Part shown: positions 1-49,398 of the stretch, one piece after another
How the letters are laid out: each line of letters opens with the position of its first letter
How positions within the stretch are numbered: position 1 is the first letter of the stretch
IMG/VR virus record: IMGVR_UViG_3300005549_000003
Span: 1-50,235 of that record
Source: a virus
Direction: 5' to 3' (one strand)
DNA: 50,235 nucleotides
Translations under genes and position numbers: made by a program
The notes under the pieces: generated by a model
What the model was told of the DNA's origin: nothing
Seen by the model: the letters and a program-made list of their open reading frames with translations, nothing else
Database searches by the model: none

Positions 1-110
1 CCAACTTTGATTAATCTTCTTTTACTGAGCCATACAGTATAAAAAGAAAAAATTTCGTAAGGGCTAAACTCCCCACCGGGTTTACCAAGAGCATAATTTA
101 ATAGGAGAGA
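1..110. repeat. Terminal direct repeat, left copy (circular closure)
   Basis: These 110 bases are identical to the last 110 bases of the window. The repeat lies inside one reading frame that continues across the join, which is the signature of a circular contig cut at an arbitrary point. A physical terminal repeat is possible, but no end-associated feature such as a cos site or terminase recognition repeat is visible here. Confidence 0.9.
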
Positions 111-164
111 AAAGCAAGAGGATAATAAGGCGAACCACAACACAAATGAAATATCGTAAGTCAT
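1..164 (-). CDS. CxxCxGFW membrane protein, 5' part (join-spanning gene)
   Basis: The start is ATG at 164, reading leftward. The frame is open to base 1 and continues in the same phase from base 50125, giving a 145-residue protein (unique bases 164..1 then 50125..49852). The N-terminus (MTYDISFVLWFALLSS) is a transmembrane segment of about residues 5-25. The middle is soluble and charged. A second hydrophobic region carries the motif CIICTGFW. This CxxCxGFW signature resembles the DUF1360 type of small membrane protein; that link is from memory of the family and is tentative. Its stop overlaps the next start (ATGA), so it belongs to the head-gene operon. The function is unknown. Confidence 0.8.
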   Translation of the reverse strand, partial: MTYDISFVLWFALLSSCFSLLLNYALGKPGGEFSPYEIFSFYTVWLSKRRLIKV

Positions 165-218
165 TAAATCAAAAATACAAAAAATACCGGGATAGTACAG
201 GATTTATATAATCATGAA

Positions 219-434
219 TTGGTGAATGGTTCTTTAAATACTATTGGGTTACGGATAACGCCATCAGGGAAAGTTGCAATAAAAAATCATGAATTTGAAA
301 CAAGACCAGAGAGAAGAGCAAGAATGGCTCTGTTTATTTCTAAATTAGCTCTAATAATTTCAAGTTTAGCACTACTGATAACAGTGCTATCAATATTGCT
401 AAAACGCTATACAATTTGGCCTTTTGATAAATAA
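219..434 (+). CDS. Small membrane protein, probably 5'-frameshifted
   Basis: This plus-strand frame lies in an otherwise leftward region. It encodes a soluble half (ITPSGKVAIKNHEFETR) followed by a hydrophobic C-terminal anchor of about 20 residues. The frame is open back to about 168 but has only TTG (219) or GTG (222) as starts. A plausible true N-terminus begins at ATG 146 in another frame (MKYRKSLNQKYKKYRD) and would join this frame if one base near 194 were removed. That suggests a frameshifted gene or a sequence error. It has low GC at third positions, as phage genes here do. The overlapping minus-strand frame 340..567 is a rival reading. The function is not recognised. Confidence 0.45.
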   Translation: MVNGSLNTIGLRITPSGKVAIKNHEFETRPERRARMALFISKLALIISSLALLITVLSILLKRYTIWPFDK

Positions 435-584
435 AATCAATTTCATTCGCCTTCGGCTCATGTTTGCCGAATACAAATTCTTTTTTAAGACTGTCACTAA
501 ATAAGATTTTTTTAAGCTTAATACTTATTGATTTTAGCGCATAAAAAAATCTTATTACCAACTTCATAATGCTAATATAGCAAA
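435..584. other. Intergenic gap with one weak hairpin
   Basis: No convincing gene is seen here. A 6-bp stem (TTCGGC/GCCGAA, 452-457 with 466-471) follows the plus-strand frame, with a T-rich run only about ten bases later, so it is at best a weak terminator. A minus-strand frame at 340..567 crosses this gap but is judged a shadow. Confidence 0.4.
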
Positions 585-920
585 TTAAAGTGAAACATTA
601 ATAACCGTTTTAAACCGAACACAATCATAATCTTCACCGTCAACTGTCACACTTAACAAATTACCATTTGAATCAAATATCTGTCCCGTAAATTCAAAAT
701 TCTCATTCAGTCCTGATATATCGAAATGAATATTTTGCCCCTCGGTTTGTTCTTCAGTCAAAGTTATTTGAGTTTGAAAATAATCCAATACTAAAGTATA
801 ATTATTCTCAGCCCCACTTTCTGCGCCCGAAGGTAAACCACCTGCCGCTTTATCAATCACAAGTGAGCCGCAGACAGGATGAGAACAAAGATTCAATATT
901 TTTACACAGCAACAAGACAT
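585..920 (-). CDS. Small cysteine-rich structural protein
   Basis: The protein has 111 residues if it starts at ATG 920 (MSCCCVKILNLCSHPVCG). An upstream start at 950 would give a longer overlap with the preceding gene, so 920 is preferred (19-bp overlap). The N-terminus is crowded with cysteines. The rest looks like a beta-rich domain (NENFEFTGQIFDSNGNLL). It sits after the tail-completion-type genes in the neck region, so a minor virion role is likely, but no family is recognised. Confidence 0.7.
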   Translation of the reverse strand: MSCCCVKILNLCSHPVCGSLVIDKAAGGLPSGAESGAENNYTLVLDYFQTQITLTEEQTEGQNIHFDISGLNENFEFTGQIFDSNGNLLSVTVDGEDYDCVRFKTVINVSL

Positions 921-1444
921 TTCTTTAATGGGTTTTCGAGAGTTACACAAAAATCTTCATCACAGGTATCGGGTTGTAATATCCACAAGGCATAAATATC
1001 AATAGCAAAATAAGCTGTTGTGGCTCCAAAGTTATAATCACCGGAACTTTCGTCTTTTAAAAGTTTAAATTTATCTCTTGAAATAGATTTCAATTTGGTT
1101 CCTGAGATCAAAACAGATTGCATTAGCTTACTAAGTATTTTGTTATGTTCTTCAGAAGGGGCATGATCTTCAAAATAAACTATCCGCAATGTTGAACGCA
1201 TATTATACCCTTTTCCACAACTTGCTAATCTCAAATCTGATTGAACTTCGTCATCCCCGTTTCTACGAATATAAAGAGTGAAATACTGATCCGAAGGCAC
1301 AAGAGATTCCCATTCATCTTTTATATTCACGGCTACAAATTTCTGCCCGTCATCATTTGTAATCATTTCTGCTGAGTGATAAACCCTATCAAATTTGTCT
1401 ACCAAATTATTCGCAATATTTTCTATGACTTCATTATATGTCAT
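902..1444 (-). CDS. Candidate tail terminator / tail completion protein
   Basis: This is a 180-residue soluble protein (MTYNEVIENIANNLVDKF). It overlaps the gene upstream by four bases (ATGA at 1441-1444), showing translational coupling. Size and position, directly after an HK97 gp10-like protein and among portal and neck genes, fit a tail terminator. The alternation of helices and strands (TLYIRRNG, STLRIVYF, ATTAYFAIDIYALW) also fits that fold. No motif proves it, so the assignment rests mostly on gene order. Confidence 0.6.
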   Translation of the reverse strand: MTYNEVIENIANNLVDKFDRVYHSAEMITNDDGQKFVAVNIKDEWESLVPSDQYFTLYIRRNGDDEVQSDLRLASCGKGYNMRSTLRIVYFEDHAPSEEHNKILSKLMQSVLISGTKLKSISRDKFKLLKDESSGDYNFGATTAYFAIDIYALWILQPDTCDEDFCVTLENPLKKCLVAV

Positions 1445-2010
1445 CCTAAAATTTCTTTAATTAAAATAACCCCTTGTTCTATAACCTTATCTTTCTCTGA
1501 ATCATTCAAGCGGAAAATTTTAATCCCGTCTCCTTTTGTCGAACCTTTGCCGCCGTTCCTGATATTTGTAATTTGGTTTTCCTGGCCTCTTGCTATTTTG
1601 GCTGCTTCGTCATTGTTAAATTGAAGTATCGCAGACTTTTCATTTTCTACTTGTGTTTCAATTGATCTTCTTAAACCCCCTTCAAGTTCCAAATCTTTTT
1701 TTGCGATCTGTCTGCCTCGTAATAATCTTTTTCTTTGGTAGGAAGTTAAATCTTGACCAACAACAGCTTTATTTCTTTTATTTTGTGTCCTATTCTTGGT
1801 AGATTTTATTGCCCTTGCTTTTCGTTTATTTCCAATATACACCCCGAAATCGTTTCCTTCAATATCCTTGTTTTCCTGAAATACTCTTTGCTGTAATAAC
1901 CCATTACCAACATTCACAGAAGCAACTAAAGCATCTGCAAATTTACCATTCTCAAAAGACTGTTTAAGTCCTTCGATTTTCTTGGCTAATATCGTTACAT
2001 CAAAAGGCAT
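1441..2010 (-). CDS. HK97 gp10-like neck / tail completion protein
   Basis: The protein has about 189 residues and starts at ATG 2010 (MPFDVTILAKKIEGLKQSF). A TTG three bases upstream is a less likely start. The middle is very basic (NKRKARAIKSTKNRTQNKR). The C-terminus ends in a pattern common to HK97 gp10-type proteins, an IFRLNDSEKDKVIE helix followed by a short terminal helix. Its start overlaps the stop of a 13-residue peptide (TGATG) and its stop overlaps the next start. A role in joining head and tail is inferred from this and from context. Confidence 0.65.
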   Translation of the reverse strand: MPFDVTILAKKIEGLKQSFENGKFADALVASVNVGNGLLQQRVFQENKDIEGNDFGVYIGNKRKARAIKSTKNRTQNKRNKAVVGQDLTSYQRKRLLRGRQIAKKDLELEGGLRRSIETQVENEKSAILQFNNDEAAKIARGQENQITNIRNGGKGSTKGDGIKIFRLNDSEKDKVIEQGVILIKEILG

Positions 2011-2051
2011 CAATAATGCGGCTTTGGTTTTACAGGTTTTTTAGGTTTCAT
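2010..2051 (-). CDS. 13-residue basic Pro/Lys peptide, possible coupling ORF
   Basis: The predicted peptide is MKPKKPVKPKPHY. Its stop overlaps the next ATG as TGATG, so it may keep ribosomes on the message between genes that are otherwise 60 bases apart. Its composition of only lysine, proline and aromatic tail residues is non-random, and similar lysine-proline minipeptides occur between phage structural genes. Real expression is uncertain. Confidence 0.4.
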   Translation of the reverse strand: MKPKKPVKPKPHY

Positions 2052-2069
2052 GTTATTATATTTTAAGGA

Positions 2070-3062
2070 CTAACCCGAAGCCCATGCGACACTCACCATT
2101 CTGGTACAAGTTACACATTCATCATTCAGATTATTTAAAGCTGCCCCCATGTTATCAGCTATCCCTTTAACTTTATCATCACCGTTCAATCTTTGATAAT
2201 AAAGAGCCATATAACGATCTGCAAGACTTAATTTTTCATCTTCATCAAACGAAGCATTACGATTATTACGCTGTGTTACTGAAAACTCACTGAAATATCT
2301 TGCTGCACTCCTGTAAAGCAACGTAACTGCAAAAAGTTTTGGCTGTTGATTTATGATGTTACACATGATAGAATCAAGCGAACAAACAACCGAGGCACAA
2401 GGAATAAAGGCATATTGTGTGGCAAATTCAGCACCGTTTAAAAGACCCTTAACTGATAAGTCTTTACTTTGAGCCGTTGAACCTGAACAACCGCATGATT
2501 TTGTAGTCGGGCAATTCAACGCCGTTACTAAAACACCTTCTTCGTCAAAATAAATCTTTACCGATTTGGCAGTAGTTTTGAAATTGATATTCGTAATTAC
2601 TAATTCAGTTCCGGCAACAAAATCTTTATTGATCACCTTTGGTAAAATTCCGTCATCCAAAACGATTGTATAATTTCCGGTACTTGCAATCATTACTTTC
2701 AAAGAATCAATAGACAGATAACCATTTTTAGTAGTGGAAAGATTGTTTACAATTACTCCTGTAAACGGTTGTGAACTGGAAAGACCCGTATAAGTACAAA
2801 CATTGCAAAACGAGTTTAGCGATGACTTTATACTGTACCCTTTTGGTACAAGCGTTTCAATATCGGTAATTAAAAATCTTGCTGAAGCTTCGATGATTTC
2901 CCGGCCAAATGTCAAACCAGATCCGTTAGATTGTTTTGTAAGTTGAGCCAAAGCAAGACGATCAACCCCCTCAATATCGTCCAAAAAAAATAAGGGCGTT
3001 GCCGTATCAGCAGTACAAAGCTCTTTTAAATTCACCAAGTCTTTAAGACAATCTATTGCCAT
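2070..3062 (-). CDS. Cysteine-rich virion protein of unknown role
   Basis: The protein has 330 residues. The start is taken at ATG 3062 because it overlaps the upstream stop as TAATG; a longer frame reaches 3113 but would run 52 bases into that gene. It contains many cysteines (FCNVCTYTG, CPTTKSCGCSG, CASVVC, CVTC). The C-terminal helix-rich stretch ARYFSEFSVTQRNNR resembles a packing or oligomerisation helix. It follows the MuF-like gene, so it is probably a head or connector component. The family is not recognised. Confidence 0.75.
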   Translation of the reverse strand: MAIDCLKDLVNLKELCTADTATPLFFLDDIEGVDRLALAQLTKQSNGSGLTFGREIIEASARFLITDIETLVPKGYSIKSSLNSFCNVCTYTGLSSSQPFTGVIVNNLSTTKNGYLSIDSLKVMIASTGNYTIVLDDGILPKVINKDFVAGTELVITNINFKTTAKSVKIYFDEEGVLVTALNCPTTKSCGCSGSTAQSKDLSVKGLLNGAEFATQYAFIPCASVVCSLDSIMCNIINQQPKLFAVTLLYRSAARYFSEFSVTQRNNRNASFDEDEKLSLADRYMALYYQRLNGDDKVKGIADNMGAALNNLNDECVTCTRMVSVAWASG

Positions 3063-3886
3063 TATGCTGCGGTTTTTGTTTTTATCGGATACCAACCATG
3101 CCGACAACCCCAATGAGCGAGGTTTATAGGCATAGTCTCAAATGTTGTTCCCTCAATGAGTCCATTTTTCTTAGCGATCTTTTCAAACTCAGGCCATTTT
3201 TCTTTAGTCAATTTTTTATCTAATTCGTTATAAACAAATTTACATTGAGGACTTGAATTGTCTATGAGTGTGCCGGTCATCAACAGCGTATCCATTTTAA
3301 AAGTGTCTAAAATCTTTTTATTGATCATGCCTGAATAGCTATCCACAGACTGCTGAGCCGTTTGTTCTATGTACCGACCCAATTTACCACTCACGTCTTT
3401 ACCGCCTTGTATATAATCCTTAATCGCTGTACGGGCATCTGAAAGGCTTAATCCTCCAGTCACATTTTGATAAATCAAATCTCTTAAAGGCTGAACGAAG
3501 TTTTGATTAAGCCCATTACCTAACATTTGTTCAATAGTTTCATCAATCACGATCTTTTTTTGAACTTCAAAGTCAGGAACTTTTATTCCATTGGTCTCTT
3601 TTTGAAAATCAGTTATAGCTTCTGAAATCGGGTTCATTCTTTTTACAAATTGAGAAATAGCTCCTGAAAATTCAGGCGTGGTTTGTAGTAAGTCAAGAAC
3701 CTGAACAGTTAATTTATTCAATTGTTTAATGAAATCCTTATTACCTACGATCTTCCCGCCTTTAATATCAAATACGTCCTCAATAGCTTTTAGCATGATA
3801 GCGTAAGCAGCCGAACCCATTTCATCAATGTGTTTTGACAGTTCTTTGACTGCTTTTTCTTTTGCTTTATCTATTTCGTTAGGCAA
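3062..3886 (-). CDS. MuF / SPP1 gp7-like minor head protein
   Basis: The protein has about 274 residues. The start is TTG at 3886, overlapping the portal stop by 8 bases. It is mostly alpha-helical. The C-terminal part has the MuF hallmark of a conserved Cys/His cluster near the end (INLAHWGCRHGWYP), preceded by SPQCKFVYNELDKK. Proteins of this family bind the portal, sit inside the head and help packaging or ejection. Its position directly after the portal gene is the normal one. Confidence 0.8.
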   Translation of the reverse strand: MPNEIDKAKEKAVKELSKHIDEMGSAAYAIMLKAIEDVFDIKGGKIVGNKDFIKQLNKLTVQVLDLLQTTPEFSGAISQFVKRMNPISEAITDFQKETNGIKVPDFEVQKKIVIDETIEQMLGNGLNQNFVQPLRDLIYQNVTGGLSLSDARTAIKDYIQGGKDVSGKLGRYIEQTAQQSVDSYSGMINKKILDTFKMDTLLMTGTLIDNSSPQCKFVYNELDKKLTKEKWPEFEKIAKKNGLIEGTTFETMPINLAHWGCRHGWYPIKTKTAA

Positions 3887-5675
3887 CGTTACTATTTACA
3901 GGGTTAAGAATGTTTGTTCTTAATTCTTTGGTCAAATCGTATTTGTCAACTTCAGCACTCAGTTTTTTAATTATTTGTTCATCTTCCAAATCGAACAGAG
4001 TTTTGTCAATCTCGTACATCTGAATTAAAATAGGATAAGCCTTTTGATGAATAATTAACTCCTTAGTTCCGATAGAACCCATTCCTTTGAAACTTGCTAA
4101 TTCATCATTAGAATAATACAAAAGTAAATCATACTTCTTAAGAATATGTAAAGCCCTTTTTACTGGACTTGATTCACTTATAAACTTATTCACGAATGAA
4201 TCTATTTGACTGGCTTTGATTGGAACGGGAGCCGAGCTTTCCAAAATCTTACTCAAAGCATCGAAAGCCTCTTGTTCTGTCAGGATCGCAAATGAATAAG
4301 GTTGTTCAACCGACACTTTAATAGGTGAACCGTTTACATAGTTCTCTAAATACTGTAACCCCATTTGAAGATTATTGTAAAGAACCTTCGAGATATTAGC
4401 GAGCCATGCATAAAGTTCTTCCCGATCAATTTCTTTGCTCTTTGCCGATTCTGTATTACCTGTCTCAACTTTCTGTTGAACAAAAACAGCCATTTCAGCC
4501 TTTTCGATATATCTGTCTGGTTGTTCTTTTGAGTAGTTTAAAATCCCAACATCAGGAGTATAGAACTCAACCGAAGGCGTGGAAAAAACTTTATTATCCT
4601 GATCGAAAGAATCGTGAACCTTCCGATAGGTCTTATATGGGCTTTGAATAGTAATAAATTTTGATCCTTTGCATTTTCTGCATTGCTCCCAACCGCCGGG
4701 GCAATCAGTACAGGCGTTCTTTCCTTGACCGTTGCACGCATCACACTCTTGCTGAACCTCTGACATTCTCGGATAAGAGTACATAAGGTCAACGGCTCTT
4801 AAATTTCTATCAGCTACTAAAGCCTTGTTCCCAAACGGCACGAAAGATTGCACGAATGATTCATAAACATCTTTTTCAACTTCGATTCCTCCGTTCTCAT
4901 AGTAAGGCAGAGTTTCAAATTCTTTTGAGTGTTGAAAAAATTCATACTTAAATTCTGTGTCTCCTGAATTCTCTTTATAAAATCTTATGAAATGTGTTTT
5001 AGTGAAAACATGGTAAACAGTATTTAAATAAGTAACTTCCAATCTTCGGTTAAATGTTCTCATTGAGCCATGCCGGACATTTGGAATACCAGGAGCTAAT
5101 TCATAATCATAATCTATAAAAACCTCCTTTGTATATTCCTTATCAATGAACTCGTATTTTTTTTCACTCTCTACTTCAGATTTAAAAATCAAAACATCAT
5201 CCTTTACGACAACTAAATCTTTATAACAAACATATCTATAAAGGTCGTCTGTATATTCCAAAGGATACCAAACACAAATACCGTTAGGATCAGTGGCAAT
5301 TGCGTTCTTGATCCAATCTTCTAAATACTGCGAAAAAAAAGATCCTTCATTTTCCTGATATTCTTCAATAATGGTTTTAGTCTTTTCGGAAATCTGAATA
5401 TTATAAGACGAGTTATTAAAAACCCTTACGATGTTATTAATTGCTTTCCAGATCGAAGCTTTTGTAATTGGTTCAAAAGAATCAACGCAGTGTTTCTGAG
5501 AATCGGGATGTTCATTAGGGTAAAGTCCAGTGACCTTATCAAACATTAAACCTTTAGTATGAACCTGAAGATTATAAGCTAACTGACCGGCGATTTGTCT
5601 CCACCATTCAGGCATCTTTGCTTCTTGAATCATCTTAACTAACGGATCTAAAATTTCTGGTGCAAGTTCTGCCAT
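3879..5675 (-). CDS. Portal protein with DnaJ-like zinc motif
   Basis: This 598-residue protein is assigned as the portal, the dodecameric ring for DNA entry and tail attachment. Support comes from its size, its place directly before the MuF-like gene, and a long helix-rich C-terminal half typical of portals (SAKSKEIDREELYAWLANI, then helices to residue 598). Around residues 309-340 lies an unusual cysteine cluster, CDACNGQGKNACTDC then CRKCKGSK, four CxxC pairs with DnaJ-like CxxCxGxG spacing, which should bind zinc. Known portals do not need this. Translation is coupled to the next gene by an 8-base overlap. Confidence 0.75.
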   Translation of the reverse strand: MAELAPEILDPLVKMIQEAKMPEWWRQIAGQLAYNLQVHTKGLMFDKVTGLYPNEHPDSQKHCVDSFEPITKASIWKAINNIVRVFNNSSYNIQISEKTKTIIEEYQENEGSFFSQYLEDWIKNAIATDPNGICVWYPLEYTDDLYRYVCYKDLVVVKDDVLIFKSEVESEKKYEFIDKEYTKEVFIDYDYELAPGIPNVRHGSMRTFNRRLEVTYLNTVYHVFTKTHFIRFYKENSGDTEFKYEFFQHSKEFETLPYYENGGIEVEKDVYESFVQSFVPFGNKALVADRNLRAVDLMYSYPRMSEVQQECDACNGQGKNACTDCPGGWEQCRKCKGSKFITIQSPYKTYRKVHDSFDQDNKVFSTPSVEFYTPDVGILNYSKEQPDRYIEKAEMAVFVQQKVETGNTESAKSKEIDREELYAWLANISKVLYNNLQMGLQYLENYVNGSPIKVSVEQPYSFAILTEQEAFDALSKILESSAPVPIKASQIDSFVNKFISESSPVKRALHILKKYDLLLYYSNDELASFKGMGSIGTKELIIHQKAYPILIQMYEIDKTLFDLEDEQIIKKLSAEVDKYDLTKELRTNILNPVNSNVA

Positions 5676-14814: not shown

Positions 14815-15560
14815 TTATTTTAATTTTTCAAGTTCTTTATTTTTTGTCTCTACCTCCTGAATAAACAAAGATAACTCCTGATAAAATTCGCCGACTGAAT
14901 AATTTAGCAAGCGATCCCTCTCTGAAATAACCCCGTTCACTATTGACCTTTGCATTAACATCATGTGTCTCTCAGCCTCGGCTGCTTTTTTAATCTCACT
15001 GTCAAAAGAACCTATTGGCCGTTGCTTACTGTCGAAGCAATTCGGGAAAGCAGATTTAAGTGCCTCGTATAGTTTTCTGTTGCTTTCATCTGCAACTTTA
15101 AAAAAAAACCGTGCATCTCGATGTCGGCCTCCAACAAACTCATTTTCTTTATTTGTAAATTGTTATCAAATCCGTCTATTGCCTCGTCATTTATACAATA
15201 GTACACGCAAACCAAAGAACTCATTTGCTTCACTGGATCTGTGGCGTTGTTTGATTTAGTTTCAAAATCCAAAACATTCGCATAAGCTTTTTCAAATTTT
15301 TCAGGATCATTAGACTTCAGAATTGTTTTTAATCCATTAATGTGTGAACTCAAATCATCTTTACTTAATCCTAAAGCATACAAAGAACTTATTTTAGTGG
15401 CTGCAAAATTTCTCGTATAAGGTAAAGTCATCAGGTCATCGAAGCTCCACCATTTATTACCTTCTTTGTCCGTGTAAACCATAGTCATTGAACAAGCACT
15501 GCCCGTTAAAGAATTTGAATAAGTGCGTTTATTATTTTCTTCTTTACTTAATTTCCACAT
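14815..15560 (-). CDS. Tail assembly chaperone fusion (gpGT-like), via -1 frameshift
   Basis: If ribosomes slip -1 at 15099-15105, the 182-residue frame is extended: 154 residues from frame 0 plus 94 from the -1 frame give about 248. The extension (KVADESNRKLYEALKSAF, then DSEIKKAAEAERHMM, ending NKELEKLK) has no ATG near its beginning but is clearly coding. It stops at 14815, three bases before the next gene. This matches lambda gpG/gpGT, where the longer product, made in minor amount, recruits tail tube subunits to the tape measure. Confidence 0.75.
15012..15560 (-). CDS. Tail assembly chaperone (gpG-like)
   Basis: This 182-residue protein starts at ATG 15560, which overlaps the previous stop as TAATG. 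The mid-part GNKWWSFDDLMTLPYTRNF then KISSLYALGLSKDD resembles a compact helical chaperone. Near the C-terminus the codons GGT TTT TTT TTA AAG provide a slip site. Position (just upstream of the tape measure) and the overlapping -1 frame support the call. The product normally wraps the tape measure before the tube polymerises. Confidence 0.75.
   Translation of the reverse strand: MWKLSKEENNKRTYSNSLTGSACSMTMVYTDKEGNKWWSFDDLMTLPYTRNFAATKISSLYALGLSKDDLSSHINGLKTILKSNDPEKFEKAYANVLDFETKSNNATDPVKQMSSLVCVYYCINDEAIDGFDNNLQIKKMSLLEADIEMHGFFLKLQMKATENYTRHLNLLSRIASTVSNGQ
15099..15105 (-). promoter_or_regulatory. -1 ribosomal frameshift slippery heptamer U UUU UUA
   Basis: In frame 0 the codons are GGT TTT TTT TTA AAG. 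The heptamer T TTT TTA fits X XXY YYZ and is the same as the HIV-1 gag-pol slip site. The -1 frame is open from here to 14815 and encodes a plausible chaperone extension. No stimulatory stem-loop or upstream Shine-Dalgarno was worked out by eye. Confidence 0.75.
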
Positions 15561-16804
15561 TATGCACTCTGCTTTAATTTAATTTTCTGTTCGATTATTT
15601 TAAACTCTGGAATTGGAATAATGAAATCACCAGTATAACCAACCTTCTTACACTTTTCCATAATCTCATCGGCGAAATTCCAACTAAGAATTATTATGTA
15701 ATCTGGCTTACCGATATTATCCAAACTTACAATAGGGATATAAGTCCCTGGAGAAAATTTACCGATCTTTTCAGGTGTTTCGTCAATGATGTAATCTATC
15801 ACATAATTATTTATACTTGCACAGTTTAAAAGTGTATTTCCTTTTGCCGAAGCTGCGAAAGCTGCAATCTTTTTTCCTTTTGATTTTAATCTAATCAAAT
15901 TGCCCATAAAATTATCAATGGTTTTCTTCGCCTTTACAGCAAACTTTAAATAGTCGTCTTTAATTAACTTATACTCGTTCTGAAGTATAAAAGTTTGCAC
16001 TGAATTTTGCTGCTCACCGTAACCAATATGAACCCTCACAGATCCGCCGTGAATATCTTTCTTCTCTACTTTCTCAACATTTAGTCCAAATTGTTTAACA
16101 AGTTGTATTAAGGGACGAATTGAAAAATAAGAAAGATGTTCGAAATAAATCGTATCGAATTCATTATTCCAGATAAAATCTATTATGTAAGGAAACTCTA
16201 AAATTAATTTCCCTTTAGGCTTAAGAACCAACTTCACAGCCTGAATAAATTCCTTCACGTTGTCCACATGAGCAAAAACATTCGTTGCCGTTATTAAGTC
16301 AGCCATAGGCCAGCAGGTCTGCATAAGATGTTCTGCCGCCGGTAACCCCCAAAAAGTAGAGTACATTCTTATTCCTTGGCTTTCATTATGCTTTATTAAA
16401 TTTCTGGCAGGATCAATATTCAAACATTTCGTATATCCGATTTCTTCTTTGAACTGATTAAGTAAAGCCCCATCATTACCGGCTATATCAATATGAAAAG
16501 AACTTTCAGTTAAGCCATATTCTTCTTTTAAGTCTTTGGCCATTTGCCTGCAATGAAGGATATAACCCTGGTTTATACTTGACCTATAAACATAATGAGA
16601 AAATAAAACTTCAGGATCAATCACACCTGAAAGCTGGCTTAGTCCACAATCTTCACATAACATAACTCTTAAAGGATAACGATCCGCTTCTTCGTTTTGA
16701 TCAGTACATAAATTATTTGAGAGTGGAAGAAAGCCAAGATCAATGTATTTAGTTAATCTTTCGGAATCGCATACTCGGCATTTTGTGTGCTGTGTGAAGC
16801 TCAT
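15560..16804 (-). CDS. NDP-sugar C-methyltransferase-like enzyme
   Basis: This 414-residue protein has the full three-part layout of TylC3/TcaB-type sugar C-methyltransferases. It has an N-terminal zinc-binding domain (CRVCDSERLTKYIDLG; CEDCGL), an SAM-binding domain (FHIDIAGNDGALLNQF; GKLILEFPYI) and a C-terminal domain (AFAASAKGNTLLNCASI; DYIIDETPEKIGKFSPG). Length matches the family (about 410). Such enzymes add a methyl group to a keto-sugar nucleotide carbon to make branched sugars. Here it sits between a glycosyltransferase fusion and tail genes and is coupled to the chaperone gene. Its substrate is unknown. Confidence 0.85.
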   Translation of the reverse strand: MSFTQHTKCRVCDSERLTKYIDLGFLPLSNNLCTDQNEEADRYPLRVMLCEDCGLSQLSGVIDPEVLFSHYVYRSSINQGYILHCRQMAKDLKEEYGLTESSFHIDIAGNDGALLNQFKEEIGYTKCLNIDPARNLIKHNESQGIRMYSTFWGLPAAEHLMQTCWPMADLITATNVFAHVDNVKEFIQAVKLVLKPKGKLILEFPYIIDFIWNNEFDTIYFEHLSYFSIRPLIQLVKQFGLNVEKVEKKDIHGGSVRVHIGYGEQQNSVQTFILQNEYKLIKDDYLKFAVKAKKTIDNFMGNLIRLKSKGKKIAAFAASAKGNTLLNCASINNYVIDYIIDETPEKIGKFSPGTYIPIVSLDNIGKPDYIIILSWNFADEIMEKCKKVGYTGDFIIPIPEFKIIEQKIKLKQSA

Positions 16805-16984: not shown

Positions 16985-19771
16985 TTATCTTTTGTAAATT
17001 ACAATAAATCCATTCATAAACTGAATACTCTCAAACAAAGGTAATGGGCTATGACAATCCTCTCTGCAATGCCATCCCTTCCCCCAATCATTAAATTCAA
17101 CAGGTGGGTTTATTGGAACATTTCCACGTTGTCCTTTAAAATGAATCTCATCTGCCAATCCTTTAAAATATTCTACTGTTGAAATTGGATGGTTCTTGTA
17201 TTCTTTCCAATAAGAAGTAGTAGTATCTTCAACTATATAAATTCCACCATTTCTAACATAGGGGAAAAGAGTTTCAAATGTAAGTATTTGTTCCATCCAG
17301 AAATGATTCCCATCATCTATTATAAAATCAAATGGTGCAAATTGTTCAAGGTTTTTAAGTTGCGCCCTATCTCTTTGGTCGAGCAAGTGGAACTTCATTC
17401 TGTCGGCAGAATAATTAACGCATGATTCACATGGCTTTGAAATATCTGCACCATGAATAGTGGCTTTTGTAAAATAATCAGTCCACATTCTCAATGACTG
17501 CCCCTGCGCCACTCCTATTTCTAATATTGATGTAAACGCTTCTCTGTACGGAGATAATATTTTATCATACTTAACCGCATAGTTATGGTATCGGGAAGAT
17601 TTATCCGCCTTGTGGCTGATAGCCATATCGTCTAAAATACTATTGATTACCATATTGGGCGTGCCTGATTTAATAGGTGTAAAAATTGATTCATGTTTTC
17701 TCATTAAGTTCAAATGTCCTCTTACCCCCGCATCCCATAAAGGTGATTGTTTCAAGTCCTTATTAATCATTACAGGCGTTTTGCCCATTCTAATAATTTG
17801 TTCATAGAATGCGGTGCCGCTTTTATGCTCAAACTCATAGCAATGTTCCCTATGCGCTATCGGATCTTTCGGGAACGTAAGTTTATTAGCTATTTCTTTA
17901 GTAACAAAAAATCCTGTCGTTCTGATATGTGTCTTTACTTCACTTGATATTTCATAACATGGGATATAACCATCTTTGAGCTTATTAAGATATTGTTGTA
18001 CGAAATCCTTTTGCATTGGGATGCAATCATCAGTTACCCAAATTAAATTCTGCCAATCATTAGGAAAGCCCTGTAGCCTTTCTTTGCATACATCTTGGAA
18101 AGCGCCTAAATCAAACCCTTTGTTTTCTCTCGGTACATACCTTATGCCGTTGTCCTTACATAATTGAAAGTATCTGTCATTATTACTTTCTTGGTTGTGT
18201 ATAACCACCAATTCTGCACCCGCTTTATCGCATTGATTCCAACAATTTACCCATAACCTTAGATTTTCAAATCTGTTCCAGACAATAATAACAACAAGTG
18301 TTTTTGTCTGAATCGGCATACTCTCTTTCCACCACAGGTCATGCCATTTGTGCATCCGTTTATCCAGTTTAGATTTTAGTTTTTTAAATGGCTTAGATTC
18401 CTGACAATGCACAATAATTGGATTCGAAGGAACCGGCAACCCCGGACAAACCTGTTCATAAATATCTTGGTAATCCCATTCTAAAGGCAATAGTTTTATT
18501 TTCAAATCTTCCATGTAAATAAAATCATTCAAAATTCCTTCATCAATAGAATATGAAAAGGATGCTGTATTTGCATAGTTTAATAATTTTTTATACCATG
18601 TTTCTTTTATAATAGATTTATTCGCTACTAATAATGCAGGTTGAATATCTATTTTACCCTCAGACATTCTTTTGGTGAGATTAGCAAGACGCAACCCCTG
18701 CCTTTCTAATTGTGGCACAAGTTTATGAAAGCATTTAGAAACAATGTGATCTTCAACAGAAATAAGATCGTATTCATTAAGCTCTTTACTAAATAAATAA
18801 GAAATGTCTTTAACACAAATACAATCGGAGTCAATACATATTACCCGGTTATATTCGGTCATGTTGAATATTTCGTAACGATACCACGAAGAAGCATATT
18901 TTTCAACAGGCAGTTCCTCACTGTATTTTACATTGCTATACCTGGCTTTTATATCATCGGTAACAAAATGACAATTCTCTTTCCCTAATTCATTCAATAC
19001 ATCTATATCCGACGTAATTACTTTAAAGTCTATATTAGTGCAATCAGTATGTCGTTTAATTGAATTAAAAAGAGTCTTCCCTGCTTCTTTGTAATGTTTA
19101 TCAAATGCTGTAACAATGCAAATTTTATCAACCGGGTCAAGGAATGTTTTATCGTGTTCTTCCTGCCTGTCTAATCGTTTCCAGTATCCAACATCCCACA
19201 TTGGTGAAATAGCATTCGGCGCAACCTGAACAATATCTAAACCCATTGCTCTTATTTGCTCGGTCATTGTCTGCTTGCCGCCCTTGTGTTCGAAATGATA
19301 ACAATCTTGTTTTGTCTTAACGGGATCAACGGGAAACTTTAATCTTAAAGAAGTTTCTTTTCGTAAACAAATTCCGGTTGTTCTGACATGAACTACATTC
19401 CCTGGTTTTGATGTTGAAATCTGCATACAAGTCAATCCTACATTTTCGGCCATCTTATCAATGAACGGGTCAATAAAATCTTTCTGCATCGGGAATGTAT
19501 CATCTGTACACCAAAGTAAATGCGTCCAATCATTTGGGAAGCCTGCTAATCTTTCTTTGCAAACATCCTGAAAAGAACCAATATCAAAGCCTATGTTTTT
19601 TCTGTGGATAAGATGTGTATTCTCGCAAATTGATTCAATTCTTTTTATATCATCACCTGTATGGATTATAATTAATTCAGCGTTTTTAGTTTCGCATTGC
19701 CTCCAACATGAAATCCATCTTTTAATGTTCTCATACCTATTAAAAACTATAACAGCAACGATTATTTTCAA
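16985..19771 (-). CDS. Multidomain glycosyltransferase-O-methyltransferase fusion
   Basis: This 928-residue protein starts at TTG 19771 (TTGA overlap with the previous stop). Four domains are visible. Residues 1-215 are a GT with DD at 90-91 (LLWCTDDTFPM). Residues 216-485 are a GT8-like domain with DSD at 314-316 (VICIDSDCIC). Residues 488-700 are a second copy of the first domain (DD at 581-582, VTDDCIPM; FQDVCKERLxGFPNDW is shared by both copies). Residues 725-928 are a class I SAM methyltransferase with EIGVAQG (751-757), DDGNH (819-823) and VEDTTTSYW, resembling MycE-type metal-dependent sugar O-methyltransferases. It probably builds and caps a short methylated glycan in the cytoplasm. 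The acceptor is unknown: virion protein, host surface sugar or DNA are all open. Confidence 0.85.
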   Translation of the reverse strand: MKIIVAVIVFNRYENIKRWISCWRQCETKNAELIIIHTGDDIKRIESICENTHLIHRKNIGFDIGSFQDVCKERLAGFPNDWTHLLWCTDDTFPMQKDFIDPFIDKMAENVGLTCMQISTSKPGNVVHVRTTGICLRKETSLRLKFPVDPVKTKQDCYHFEHKGGKQTMTEQIRAMGLDIVQVAPNAISPMWDVGYWKRLDRQEEHDKTFLDPVDKICIVTAFDKHYKEAGKTLFNSIKRHTDCTNIDFKVITSDIDVLNELGKENCHFVTDDIKARYSNVKYSEELPVEKYASSWYRYEIFNMTEYNRVICIDSDCICVKDISYLFSKELNEYDLISVEDHIVSKCFHKLVPQLERQGLRLANLTKRMSEGKIDIQPALLVANKSIIKETWYKKLLNYANTASFSYSIDEGILNDFIYMEDLKIKLLPLEWDYQDIYEQVCPGLPVPSNPIIVHCQESKPFKKLKSKLDKRMHKWHDLWWKESMPIQTKTLVVIIVWNRFENLRLWVNCWNQCDKAGAELVVIHNQESNNDRYFQLCKDNGIRYVPRENKGFDLGAFQDVCKERLQGFPNDWQNLIWVTDDCIPMQKDFVQQYLNKLKDGYIPCYEISSEVKTHIRTTGFFVTKEIANKLTFPKDPIAHREHCYEFEHKSGTAFYEQIIRMGKTPVMINKDLKQSPLWDAGVRGHLNLMRKHESIFTPIKSGTPNMVINSILDDMAISHKADKSSRYHNYAVKYDKILSPYREAFTSILEIGVAQGQSLRMWTDYFTKATIHGADISKPCESCVNYSADRMKFHLLDQRDRAQLKNLEQFAPFDFIIDDGNHFWMEQILTFETLFPYVRNGGIYIVEDTTTSYWKEYKNHPISTVEYFKGLADEIHFKGQRGNVPINPPVEFNDWGKGWHCREDCHSPLPLFESIQFMNGFIVIYKR

Positions 19772-20418
19772 ACTTCAAATTTTGATTTATTAGGGAATAG
19801 TTGTTTAAGCAAAGGTAATGCTGATTTCAAAGAATATTCGCCCGTCGAAAAACATGGTTTACCATTAATGAATTCAGCAGGGTTTTTAATGTCGTTCTTT
19901 TTTATCAATTTGCAATCGGGGAATTCAATACCTTCTACCCCCAAATAATTACAGCACATACTTTTCAAAATTACATCTTGTGTAAAGTGTTCACTTGCTT
20001 CTTTAAATCGCTGATCGTAAATTAAAGGATAATGACCGTCAAAGTTTTTAAACGTCTTACCCATTGCTTCTAATTGTTTTTGCAAAGGTCTTGCCCCGCT
20101 TTCGGAATAAGTTTTTAAAGAACCATTCCAATAATAAGGAAATTCAGTTGCCGGTTGTAATAAAAAAACGTCATCATTCATAAAGAGTATTTCTTTTGCA
20201 TATTCCAACCCCGCCAAAATCTTTCTTCTTATTGATAATTGCTTTTTACCTGGAATATCTCCTAAGTCAATCCACGTAATATTTATAAGCCAATCGGGAA
20301 TATATTCGCCAATTATTAAAACTTCATAAGGTACGGGGATAAACTTTTCAATTGATCTGAGACTAAACATAAGTTCTGTGTAATCTTTCTGAACAGCTAA
20401 AGGATAAACTATAATCAT
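19768..20418 (-). CDS. Glycosyltransferase, stealth/GT2-like
   Basis: This 216-residue protein starts at ATG 20418 (ATGA overlap with the preceding gene). The sequence has a nucleotide-sugar fold start (YEVLIIGEYIPDW), then RRKILAGLEYAKEILFMNDDVFLLQP, in which the NDD motif resembles the metal-binding acidic pair of GT families. DGHYPLIYDQRF and HFTQDVILKSMCCNYLG follow. It probably transfers a sugar or sugar-phosphate as part of the same cassette as the next two enzymes. The donor cannot be told from sequence. Confidence 0.7.
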   Translation of the reverse strand: MIIVYPLAVQKDYTELMFSLRSIEKFIPVPYEVLIIGEYIPDWLINITWIDLGDIPGKKQLSIRRKILAGLEYAKEILFMNDDVFLLQPATEFPYYWNGSLKTYSESGARPLQKQLEAMGKTFKNFDGHYPLIYDQRFKEASEHFTQDVILKSMCCNYLGVEGIEFPDCKLIKKNDIKNPAEFINGKPCFSTGEYSLKSALPLLKQLFPNKSKFEV

Positions 20419-20840: not shown

Positions 20841-20878
20841 GCTGAGCTGTGCTATGTGTAAATCTAATATACAAAAAA

Positions 20879-20898
20879 GCCCTCGTAGAAACGAGAGC
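20879..20898 (-). terminator. Intrinsic terminator (tandem terminator 2)
   Basis: On the minus strand the stem GCTCTCGT/ACGAGGGC, 8 bp with one G-U pair and a 4-base loop, is followed by six U. This is the best-formed terminator in the spacer and would end the terminase transcript. Confidence 0.75.
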
Positions 20899-20942
20899 CG
20901 GTTTTAAAATCCATGTCCTTTGAAAACCAAAAATATAAAGAA

Positions 20943-20968
20943 AACCGGCAAGACCAACCCTGCCGGTT
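20943..20968 (-). terminator. Hairpin with U-rich tail (tandem terminator 1)
   Basis: The perfect 8-bp stem AACCGGCA/TGCCGGTT has a 10-base loop and is followed on the minus strand by TTTTC and further T-rich sequence. Confidence 0.55.
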
Positions 20969-20992
20969 CAACCAAAACCGACGATGAAAGAA

Positions 20993-23951: not shown

Positions 23952-24416
23952 TCAAAATTGTTTAAAAGTTAGGTTATTATTTATAGAATTAAAATGAACA
24001 ATCATTGAGCTAAACGGAGCCGTATATTCTGCGCCTTTAAATCTTACTCTTTTGTCAATCCAATAGATAGTATTACCTAAACAATATTTTTGGAACCAGT
24101 CAGAAGATGTGGAAACAGGCAATAAAGCAATTATATTAGAATGGCTTGATTCCTTTCTACATTTCGCAACCCACTTATCAATATTTCCCCTGCTATAAGG
24201 GGGATTAACAAAAACAATATTATTATGCCAATCGAAAGAAAGTCCATCCTGAACAGGCGTAAAATAATTCTTACACTTTGCCGTTTCTTCTGTACAACAA
24301 GGGTCGAGTGTAAAATGAAACATCTTATTAAGTGGTTTAAATATATGATCCGGAGTTTCCCACAGATCTTTATTATCATGATCAGAGGCCAATATCATTT
24401 CTTTAGTTCTTATCAT
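23952..24416 (-). CDS. Phage DNA N6-adenine methyltransferase (Dam family)
   Basis: This 154-residue protein has the short Dam-type layout of phage N6-adenine methylases: LWETPDHIFKPLNKMF, then LDPC (37-40), then the catalytic NPPY (FVNPPYSRGNID, residues 71-74), then SSDWFQKY and RVRFKGAEYTAPFSSMIVH. It transfers methyl from SAM to adenine N6. Likely uses are protection from host restriction or marking its own DNA. The domain matches the stand-alone family length. Confidence 0.9.
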   Translation of the reverse strand: MIRTKEMILASDHDNKDLWETPDHIFKPLNKMFHFTLDPCCTEETAKCKNYFTPVQDGLSFDWHNNIVFVNPPYSRGNIDKWVAKCRKESSHSNIIALLPVSTSSDWFQKYCLGNTIYWIDKRVRFKGAEYTAPFSSMIVHFNSINNNLTFKQF

Positions 24417-47311: not shown

Positions 47312-48415
47312 TTAAGCTGATTCACAAACCGGCGTTTCAGGATTTCCGCAAGCATGAATTTGAACAATACCATTCACTCCCGCCAAATCTTCACCACAAC
47401 CACCTGCCAGATTAACCGCAAGCTCTGCTGAAAGGAAAGGCTCATAAGTCCAACTCTTACACTTGTAATCGTAGTACCAGTCAAAATCTACCTCAATTCC
47501 AGTCGCAGGATCGGTAAAGGTTCCGTGTGTATAAAGGTCGGTGATAGCTCTTGCTTTTTCACCTTTATATTCGTTCCACGTAACCAACTGAGCCGCCCCA
47601 GGTGCTACTTGAAGGAAATCAGAAAGACCAAGAATGTTATCTGAATTACGATCATAATAAATGAAAGGAAGTTCTTCATTCAAGTTATTAAGATCAACTC
47701 CCATTGCATTTAATCCTTGCCATTTCTTGAATTCAGCGATCATAGCAAGCGTTTGACCTCCGATGAGCGCAAACTGCCCATCGTTGCCGGCGTTCTTCCA
47801 GTACTGATTCAGGAAGAAAATTGCCATTGCATTCAGGTTTGATTGACCTGTATCTGCGTTTGTGGTAAAGAAAGTCAGGTCGGTCGTAGCTGCTCCAAGA
47901 GCATTCGTACCGACTTTTGTTACAAGGATCTCAAAAATTCTTTGATCTAAACTTTCAATCCATCTTTTGTTAAAACGTGCAATTTGACGAGTAATATAAG
48001 ATGTGTCACTTTCCAAACAATATCTTGCAAGGTCTGATTCTGCAAAAGTCAACTGAACCGGCTGTGCGCCTGATCCTTCGCCTTCACAAACTCTGTAAGG
48101 AGGACTTGTAAGCTCGAAAACTACTTCCTCTGCGGGATTTGCAAGATCAACTCTTGTCGTATTACAATCGGCTGCGAGTGAACAAAGATCAAAACAGAAA
48201 GGATTATCAACCATCATTGCGATGGCTCTTTTTTTACCGGGGATGCTTTGAACGTCTATTTGACGAAAGCCCCTCATATTTTGTGGCGAACGCAGGAATT
48301 TTAAAAGACCTATCGAACCAAGTGTTCTGAACTCTGCCGCATTCTGCCCGTAAAATTCGACTAATTTGGCTTCAAGCGATTTACACGCATAAGCCCCAAC
48401 TGCTGAGTAAGGCAT
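47312..48415 (-). CDS. Major capsid protein
   Basis: This 367-residue protein comes directly after the scaffold-like gene and before a strong terminator. Length and fold pattern (N-terminal helix and arm, then IPGKKRAIAMMVDNPF; a later segment AMIAEFKKWQGLNAMGVDL; strand-rich C-terminus) fit an HK97-type major capsid protein. It carries unusually many cysteines (FCFDLC, YKCKSW, GGCGED, HACGNPETPVCESA). Assignment is by context and length, without a diagnostic motif. Confidence 0.75.
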   Translation of the reverse strand: MPYSAVGAYACKSLEAKLVEFYGQNAAEFRTLGSIGLLKFLRSPQNMRGFRQIDVQSIPGKKRAIAMMVDNPFCFDLCSLAADCNTTRVDLANPAEEVVFELTSPPYRVCEGEGSGAQPVQLTFAESDLARYCLESDTSYITRQIARFNKRWIESLDQRIFEILVTKVGTNALGAATTDLTFFTTNADTGQSNLNAMAIFFLNQYWKNAGNDGQFALIGGQTLAMIAEFKKWQGLNAMGVDLNNLNEELPFIYYDRNSDNILGLSDFLQVAPGAAQLVTWNEYKGEKARAITDLYTHGTFTDPATGIEVDFDWYYDYKCKSWTYEPFLSAELAVNLAGGCGEDLAGVNGIVQIHACGNPETPVCESA

Positions 48416-48519
48416 AATTTTTTGTTTTAAAATGTTTTAAAATAGTGTTTCAGATCACTGCTGATCACTGTTTTAGTTCACTTGGAACAAAAAATATGCA
48501 CTTAAGCCTGTGCCGGCAC
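48416..48519. promoter_or_regulatory. Capsid-gene leader with direct repeats
   Basis: On the plus strand, GATCACTG occurs twice (CAGATCACTG CTGATCACTG, near 48457-48475), and the palindrome GTGCCGGCAC lies near 48509. The stretch is otherwise AT-rich. It is a candidate regulator or promoter region for the capsid gene. No perfect TTTG/TAnnTTTG pair was found. Confidence 0.4.
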
Positions 48520-49398
48520 TCAGCCTTCTGCGGCTATCTTCTTACTTATCTTTTCTTGTATGTGAGGAGCTACAACCATCTTAAGGGTTCCGTTATCAGG
48601 TGTGACTTTTATTACACCTGATCCAGATTGAGCCTCAGTTTTCTTTTCAATCCAACCCCTCTCCGTAGCGATTTCAGTCAAAGCATCTTTCAAAGTTAAT
48701 TCATGCGAACTTCCATTCTTTAAAACTTTCATTTGAGGATTTGCTTTTTGTCTCAACTCCACCGAGTAATCACCAACCCTTTCAAATGAATATTTAGATT
48801 GTAAAATTTGATTTGCTGTTGCTGCTATATCCCCTGCGGAAATTTTCAAACCCTGTATAGAACTCAATTCACCAATTAAAGCAGCGTTGAAAATAGCTGC
48901 CGTTATTTTTGCGTTCGATTCACCCTCGTATTTAGTTTTAAATTTTTCCTCAATCCCTTCAAAACCTTCAAGTTGTTTTCTTGCAGCGATCAAATCTTCT
49001 TGTAGCTTCTTATCCCCTGTTTTTGTTTTTGTGTACCTCTCAGCAATCACAGGAATAAGGCTTTCAATTTTATCTTTTGTTTCAGCCGGAAGATCTTCAA
49101 GGTCTGCCTCGGTCATTCCCAAACCCTTCAATAATTTATCAGTGACTATTTTAGCCGCTCTGCCAAACTGTGAAGATTCCAGTTTCTTCTTTACTTCAAC
49201 CGGTAATTTCTCTAAAGTCTTATCGGTAAAAAATTCAGGATCGTTTTCGAATTGAGTTTTATAACCTGTTTTTACTTTCTCGGCATATGGTTTAGGGTCG
49301 AATGTTCCCTGATCTGCTTCGGGTAAAGAATCTATTTTTTGAGCATCTTCAGGAGATACACCAAGATTTGTAAGAAGGTCAACGATGTGTTTAGGCAT
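48520..49398 (-). CDS. Candidate capsid scaffolding protein
   Basis: This 292-residue protein is very helical and charged (KLPVEVKKKLESSQFGRA; TGDKKLQEDLIAARKQLEGF) and lies just upstream of the major capsid gene. Size, composition and position fit a scaffolding protein, which is removed after shell assembly. There is no protease motif. Confidence 0.7.
   Translation of the reverse strand: MPKHIVDLLTNLGVSPEDAQKIDSLPEADQGTFDPKPYAEKVKTGYKTQFENDPEFFTDKTLEKLPVEVKKKLESSQFGRAAKIVTDKLLKGLGMTEADLEDLPAETKDKIESLIPVIAERYTKTKTGDKKLQEDLIAARKQLEGFEGIEEKFKTKYEGESNAKITAAIFNAALIGELSSIQGLKISAGDIAATANQILQSKYSFERVGDYSVELRQKANPQMKVLKNGSSHELTLKDALTEIATERGWIEKKTEAQSGSGVIKVTPDNGTLKMVVAPHIQEKISKKIAAEG

Follow-up and report, generated by a model that had tools for sequence, protein, structure and literature searches.

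A phage gene joining three glycosyltransferase-type domains and a sugar O-methyltransferase: a conserved core with an exchangeable N-terminal slot

The four-domain gene and its surroundings

The locus raises the question of what a phage would do with a single protein that combines several glycosyltransferase-type domains with a sugar O-methyltransferase, and on which acceptor such a protein would act. The gene is located in a stretch of viral DNA of 50,235 nucleotides (IMG/VR record IMGVR_UViG_3300005549_000003), which is called the window below. The open reading frame occupied exactly positions 16985–19771 (928 codons), as given in a preliminary description that had named no strand; it lies on the minus strand, where its start codon, TTG, and the TGA stop codon of the upstream gene overlap. 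The four domains and the motif positions of that description were also recovered: A1 (residues 1–214) and A2 (488–701), with the aspartate pairs at 90–91 and 581–582 and the segment FQDVCKERLxGFPNDW in both copies, a GT8 domain (216–486) with DSD at 314–316, and a C-terminal methyltransferase domain, MT (708–928), with DDGNH at 819–823. An assembly artefact was rejected, since an independent contig (L002) carries the same A-GT8-A-MT architecture, being about 76–83% identical to the window over the last three domains. The frame represents a real, intact and conserved multi-domain enzyme. No transmembrane segments were predicted in it. The full-length AlphaFold model, built from a ten-row alignment, reached a pLDDT of 55, which is too poor for the mutual orientation of the domains, and was not used.

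The minus-strand gene order begins with a terminase gene, followed by two terminator-like hairpins (20878–20969, minus strand; 12 and 9 stem pairs; the scanned region held four such hairpins, where 4.5 were expected), which separate it from the glycosylation cassette. Then come two small ORFs and the gene of a Stealth_CR2-like putative sugar transferase of 216 aa (19768–20418, minus strand), lying directly upstream of the enzyme gene with a 4-base overlap. Its product matched PF11380 weakly (E 8e-7, below the cut-off) and phrog_7999, a group of unknown function, at E 2.5e-15, and its homologues were found near an A gene in other phages. Downstream of the enzyme gene, an NDP-sugar C-methyltransferase of 414 aa (15560–16804, minus strand) with Methyltransf_13 and Methyltransf_14 domains (PF08484, E 2.3e-37; PF08421, E 8.5e-19) is followed by three small genes and a protein of 1251 aa. 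The latter had no family match; judged from its length and coiled-coil look it is a probable tape measure, and a 1249-aa homologue comes after the terminase in another contig (L021). The late-gene location assumed in the preliminary description was supported, the cassette sitting between the terminase and the probable tape-measure gene with no known capsid gene adjoining.

Elsewhere in the window, the right end holds a scaffold-like gene with a weak PF06810 match (47312–49398, minus strand), and further probable late genes occupy the left end (1–5675, minus strand); the late-type genes at both ends suggest a circularly permuted genome. The 598-aa protein encoded at 3879–5675 (minus strand) includes a CxxCxGxG-type zinc ribbon at about residues 304–342 (weak Anti-TRAP match, E 2e-4) and is possibly a portal with an inserted DnaJ-like zinc ribbon; tblastn found no homologue of it in deposited phages. 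A Dam-type DNA N-6-adenine methyltransferase (PF05869, E 6e-26) is encoded at 23952–24416 (minus strand).

Domain folds and conserved residues

The two A domains (A1, 19130–19771; A2, 17669–18310; both minus strand) were identical in 89 of 213 positions (42%, E 6e-62), which is far beyond chance, and the profile match of A1 reached E 2e-97. The repeated domain had been taken for a glycosyltransferase, and the structural comparison agreed with this: an AlphaFold model of A2 from an alignment of 40 A domains (pLDDT 96.2) matched in the PDB, using Foldseek, mostly GT-A glycosyltransferases at E about 1e-6 and TMq about 0.5–0.62, among them chondroitin synthase/polymerase, TarP and GlcAT, with a cytidylyltransferase of similar fold as the best match. 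The best viral structural matches, in BFVD, were RgpF-like proteins. A GT-A glycosyltransferase fold is predicted for the A domains from this model. Eleven residues were invariant across the 40 A domains, including D94, D95, H128, R130 and D193 in alignment numbering; D94–D95 correspond to residues 581–582 in A2 and 90–91 in A1, and A1 retains all eleven, both aspartates included. Although A shares the predicted fold with RgpF- and GT2-like GT-A enzymes, it differs from them in being nearly confined to phage contigs, and the A2 of the window belonged to no Pfam family at E 0.01, Glycos_transf_2 (GT2) included. A few A domains elsewhere weakly matched PF05045, PF13506 or PF00535, and the A profile produced only chance matches among PDB sequences.

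The domain between the two A copies (18314–19126, minus strand) scored 41.7 bits against PF01501, above the Pfam cut-off of 24.3, which substantiated its initial recognition as GT8-like. Its sole solved relative was the C-terminal region of WbbM (6u4b, E 6e-10), and the DxD motif, DSD in the window, was present in 6 of 6 aligned relatives. In the GT8 family the C-terminal motif is of the HxxGxxKPW type. In contrast to it, the phage enzyme and its relatives have an invariant HCQESKPF, in which the H, K and P are kept, but not the G and W, and the spacing is shorter by one residue.

The C-terminal domain (16988–17650, minus strand; LEIGVAQGQS, DDGNH, and ED at 848–849) is of the MycE type, as had been proposed, and is a predicted SAM- and metal-dependent sugar O-methyltransferase; it matched MycE (3ssm) at E 1.5e-18 and TylE (8ia9) at E 6.5e-17, and a profile search reached E 3.9e-22. 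The active residues of the MycE family are Tyr208, Asp275, His278 and Asp304 (PMC9275233). In the phage domain, Asp275, His278 and Asp304 correspond to D820, H823 and D849, which were invariant in a ten-sequence alignment, while Tyr208 had no equivalent, falling by alignment in a MycE insertion absent here. For this reason the domain is referred to as a MycE-like catalytic domain and not as a MycE orthologue: it is homologous to the catalytic domain of the macrolide sugar O-methyltransferases MycE and TylE and has the same Asp/His/Asp residues, but lacks the Tyr208 loop and the N-terminal part of MycE and is fused to glycosyltransferases. Judging from the conserved residues, MT would depend on SAM and a divalent metal for methylating the hydroxyl of a sugar. 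The acidic and catalytic residues of the domains were kept in the homologues.

Architectures of the relatives and the N-terminal slot

In the IMG/VR scans, A was found at 46 loci, MT at 61 and GT8 at 7, counts that include repeat loci of one contig and near-identical phages. The architecture A-GT8-A-MT was shared by the window, L002 and L011. In L005 a GT42-like domain precedes GT8-A-MT; in L003 that domain has its own gene immediately upstream (phrog_4603, E 1.8e-32), and the enzyme itself starts with a short domain instead. In L004 a 39-residue A remnant precedes GT8-A-MT, and its GT8 forms a sister pair with the one in L011, which has a full A1. In L014 a short unassigned N-terminus takes this position, and L013 encodes a protein of 1207 aa with the order GT8-GT8-A-MT and an extra C-terminal region. 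GT8-MT accompanied by a separate A-GT2 gene was found in L006. Most other loci encode A-GT2 proteins of about 400–450 aa; GT2-A occurs in L039, and L049 has a similar protein; in seven loci (L036, L038, L040–L043 and L046) MT and A are encoded by neighbouring genes that overlap. The N-terminal slot hence holds an A domain of one of three lineages, a second GT8, a GT42-like domain or a short domain, or is empty. The four-part fusion is unusual, as first stated, but not unique, several other phage contigs carrying GT8-A-MT cores; a limited literature search found no relevant report of a phage GT-GT-methyltransferase fusion.

In the tree of A domains, the core A domains, with A2 of the window included, formed one clade (100/99), while A1 fell in a different place for each of the window, L002 and L011, that of L011 within an A-GT2 clade. 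The AU test rejected A1 and A2 of the window as sisters (p 2e-50) and also a single clade of the three A1 domains (p 6e-7), with p-values that are somewhat optimistic, since the groups were named post hoc from the tree. Joining A1 of the window to the A2 clade was not rejected (p 0.057), and a deep common root of the two remains compatible with the data. Of the internal duplication claimed in the preliminary description, the homology of the two copies stood, but their origin by duplication in place did not: they represent separate lineages and the slot has been exchanged. The single clade of core A domains, together with the scattered A1 domains, indicates that the core was inherited as a unit, while the N-terminal domain was exchanged; on the sequence evidence, GT8-A2-MT is a conserved core with an N-terminal slot exchanged between phages. 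The core was under purifying selection (pN 0.09–0.20 against pS 0.57–0.91), and with synonymous sites near saturation it is the contrast that is usable and not the ratio. Another GT-methyltransferase fusion, with an MT related to that of the window, was present in L100–L104 (ORFs of 861–884 aa); in L100 a rhamnosyltransferase-like region (PF11316) precedes the MT-related domain.

In 32 of the 42 related loci a C-methyltransferase gene was located no more than 5 kb away, and an RmlD-like reductase/epimerase domain was often its neighbour or fusion partner. Homologues of terminase, portal, capsid or tape-measure genes were located within 10 kb in at least 29 of the 42, many of the contigs being short; this count describes the set and is not an enrichment test, because the structural-gene queries were partly drawn from the same loci. 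In L003, L005 and L013 the major head gene is closely followed by the cassette, with one small gene between; the cassette includes, in somewhat varying order, GT42-like, GT8-A-MT, C-methyltransferase, GT2-like and sulfotransferase genes and is followed by a small connector-like gene. A capsid gene lies 102–389 bp from the enzyme gene in four further loci (PF05065 in L011, homologues in L029, L044 and L115). The short domain at the N-terminus of the L003 enzyme (GGxLR...F.A...E.P) resembles part of the small post-head gene (22–33% identity, three sequences; segments concerned, L003:9785-10003, L003:8659-9105 and L005:8960-9427), a similarity that gives a weak hint of a link between enzyme and virion. 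In L002, the A-GT8-A-MT gene and the C-methyltransferase fusion flank a gene of 237 aa (L002:4102-4815) that looks, by eye, like a GIY-YIG homing endonuclease.

Proposed function, acceptor and host

We slightly favor the reading that this is a soluble late phage enzyme adding sugars in sequence, with O-methylation as the cap and most likely a virion protein as the acceptor. A1, GT8 and A2 would each transfer a sugar from a nucleotide-sugar donor onto the growing acceptor. MT would O-methylate a sugar hydroxyl, a step dependent on SAM and a divalent metal that probably caps the chain, and an unusual donor, a C-methylated deoxysugar, is probably supplied or modified by the neighbouring C-methyltransferase. 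The acceptor would most likely be a capsid protein, or one of the tail or fibre, and, with GT8-A2-MT fixed, the exchange of the N-terminal transferase between phages would alter one sugar. We infer that all domains work on one chain, in a given order and with methylation as the cap, to give one defined methylated oligosaccharide on the virion. The virion acceptor is suggested by the late-gene context, by the lack of detected polytopic membrane partners and by the precedents of A064R and the mycobacteriophages (see below). The late-gene location indicates timing at most and not the target, and would equally suit a host-surface enzyme.

Such an enzyme, modifying LPS, capsule or S-layer glycan and thereby hiding receptors from superinfecting phages or keeping the progeny from re-adsorbing, is a serious rival, even if we consider it rather unlikely. 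Phage seroconversion is well known, WbbM, the nearest solved GT8 relative, is an O-antigen enzyme, and the RmlD, C-methyltransferase and sulfotransferase neighbours resemble surface-polysaccharide genes. However, the genes are located among late genes and not among lysogenic-conversion genes, and no GtrC-like polytopic membrane protein, flippase or integral acyltransferase was found among 415 neighbouring ORFs, of which two, the probable tape measure and an antisense ORF, had three or more hydrophobic segments; in the control, GtrC of P22 was detected (8 segments) and GtrA was underestimated, so small flippases could be missed. It is improbable that one or more of the domains, most likely A1, are non-catalytic modules for acceptor recognition or docking, which would in effect make the protein a GT8-A2-MT machine with variable targeting: the slot is indeed dispensable, being absent in L006, reduced to the 39-residue remnant in L004 and holding the short domain in L003, but A1 keeps the complete set of invariant residues and the alternatives in the slot are mostly glycosyltransferase-like (GT8, GT42-like). 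Phage glucosyltransferases acting on DNA exist and MycE acts on a small macrolide, but it is very improbable that the sugars go onto phage DNA bases or a small diffusible molecule instead of a protein or envelope glycan, given that the Pfam-scanned window genes (an incomplete scan) included no base-hypermodification genes, only the Dam methylase, and that we know of no MycE-type O-methylation of DNA-linked sugars.

For the favored assembly of a methylated glycan on the virion, the closest functional precedent, by analogy, is A064R of the chlorovirus PBCV-1, a protein of 638 aa with two rhamnosyltransferases and an O-2 methyltransferase of proven activity, which makes the outer part of the capsid glycan and finishes it; A111/114R of the same virus includes three glycosyltransferases (PMC7826918, PMC9614988). 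As in the phage enzyme, one viral polypeptide unites successive glycosyltransferases and a C-terminal sugar O-methyltransferase. In contrast, A064R comes from a virus of eukaryotic algae, while the phage enzyme has three GT-type domains, a MycE-type methyltransferase and an N-terminal domain that is exchanged among relatives, and A, GT8 and MT had no homology, detectable at the thresholds used, to the PDB-deposited A064R-D1, the one part compared. Mycobacteriophage capsids are reported to be glycosylated (Freeman 2023, cited in PMC13313380, PMC11256854). The mycobacteriophage glycosyltransferase and methyltransferase genes share with the phage enzyme homologues of the MT domain, and in a mycobacterial prophage an MT relative lies beside a glycosyltransferase gene, upstream of the terminase; they differ in being separate genes, in other hosts, with no match to A or GT8.

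A wider interpretation, put forward tentatively, is that the relatives make up an undescribed phage-specific family of modular glycan assembly, with a fixed GT8-A-methyltransferase core and an exchangeable N-terminal cartridge, whose particles may bear differing O-methylated glycans with C-methyl sugars, and in which A would be a new GT-A family. If so, the N-terminal exchange would resemble antigenic variation of the particle, one soluble protein of the phage would make a methylated oligosaccharide, and the A064R principle of algal giant viruses would extend to bacteriophages; the natural domain swaps would provide a ready series for testing whether one module corresponds to one sugar, and a phage-specific GT-A family without a Pfam model would be added, along with a compact glycoengineering tool. 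The novel points are the proposed new GT-A family and the exchangeable N-terminal module, the principle of multidomain glycosyltransferase/methyltransferase proteins being already known. To our knowledge, glycosylation of the virion has been shown in few cases among tailed phages. The data suggest that these phages make a variable coat of methylated sugars, with their own particles as its most likely site.

Cellular genomes hardly ever carry the A domain: a pattern scan detected it in 2 of 84,980, once on a contig with a capsid homologue (L115) and once in a MAG of the Chitinophagaceae, adjoining genes for baseplate J, P2 tail I and DUF6519 (L116), and a profile search in 3 of 299 Chitinophagaceae genomes (one partial) and, for the phylum, in 1 of 396. 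Within INPHARED, no phage had most of the 928-aa protein, and the A domain was present in one uncultured phage of 595 kb only; no cultured phage with such a cassette turned up. These occurrences make a Bacteroidota host likely for the window. Megablast of the first 25 kb of the window against deposited phages gave no match, and the terminase, at 28% to many phages, was uninformative on the host, as was a search for Bacteroidetes-type promoters (TTTG, 17–22, TAnnTTTG; none found, about 4 expected by chance); no Rfam elements or tRNA were found. At the Chitinophagaceae locus (L116:1-9245), the A-GT2 gene and a second GT2 gene come after those for baseplate J, Tail_P2_I and DUF6519, and the opposite strand carries SLOG-cluster and relaxase genes nearby; the locus could be a phage or phage-tail-like system equipped with glycosyltransferases.
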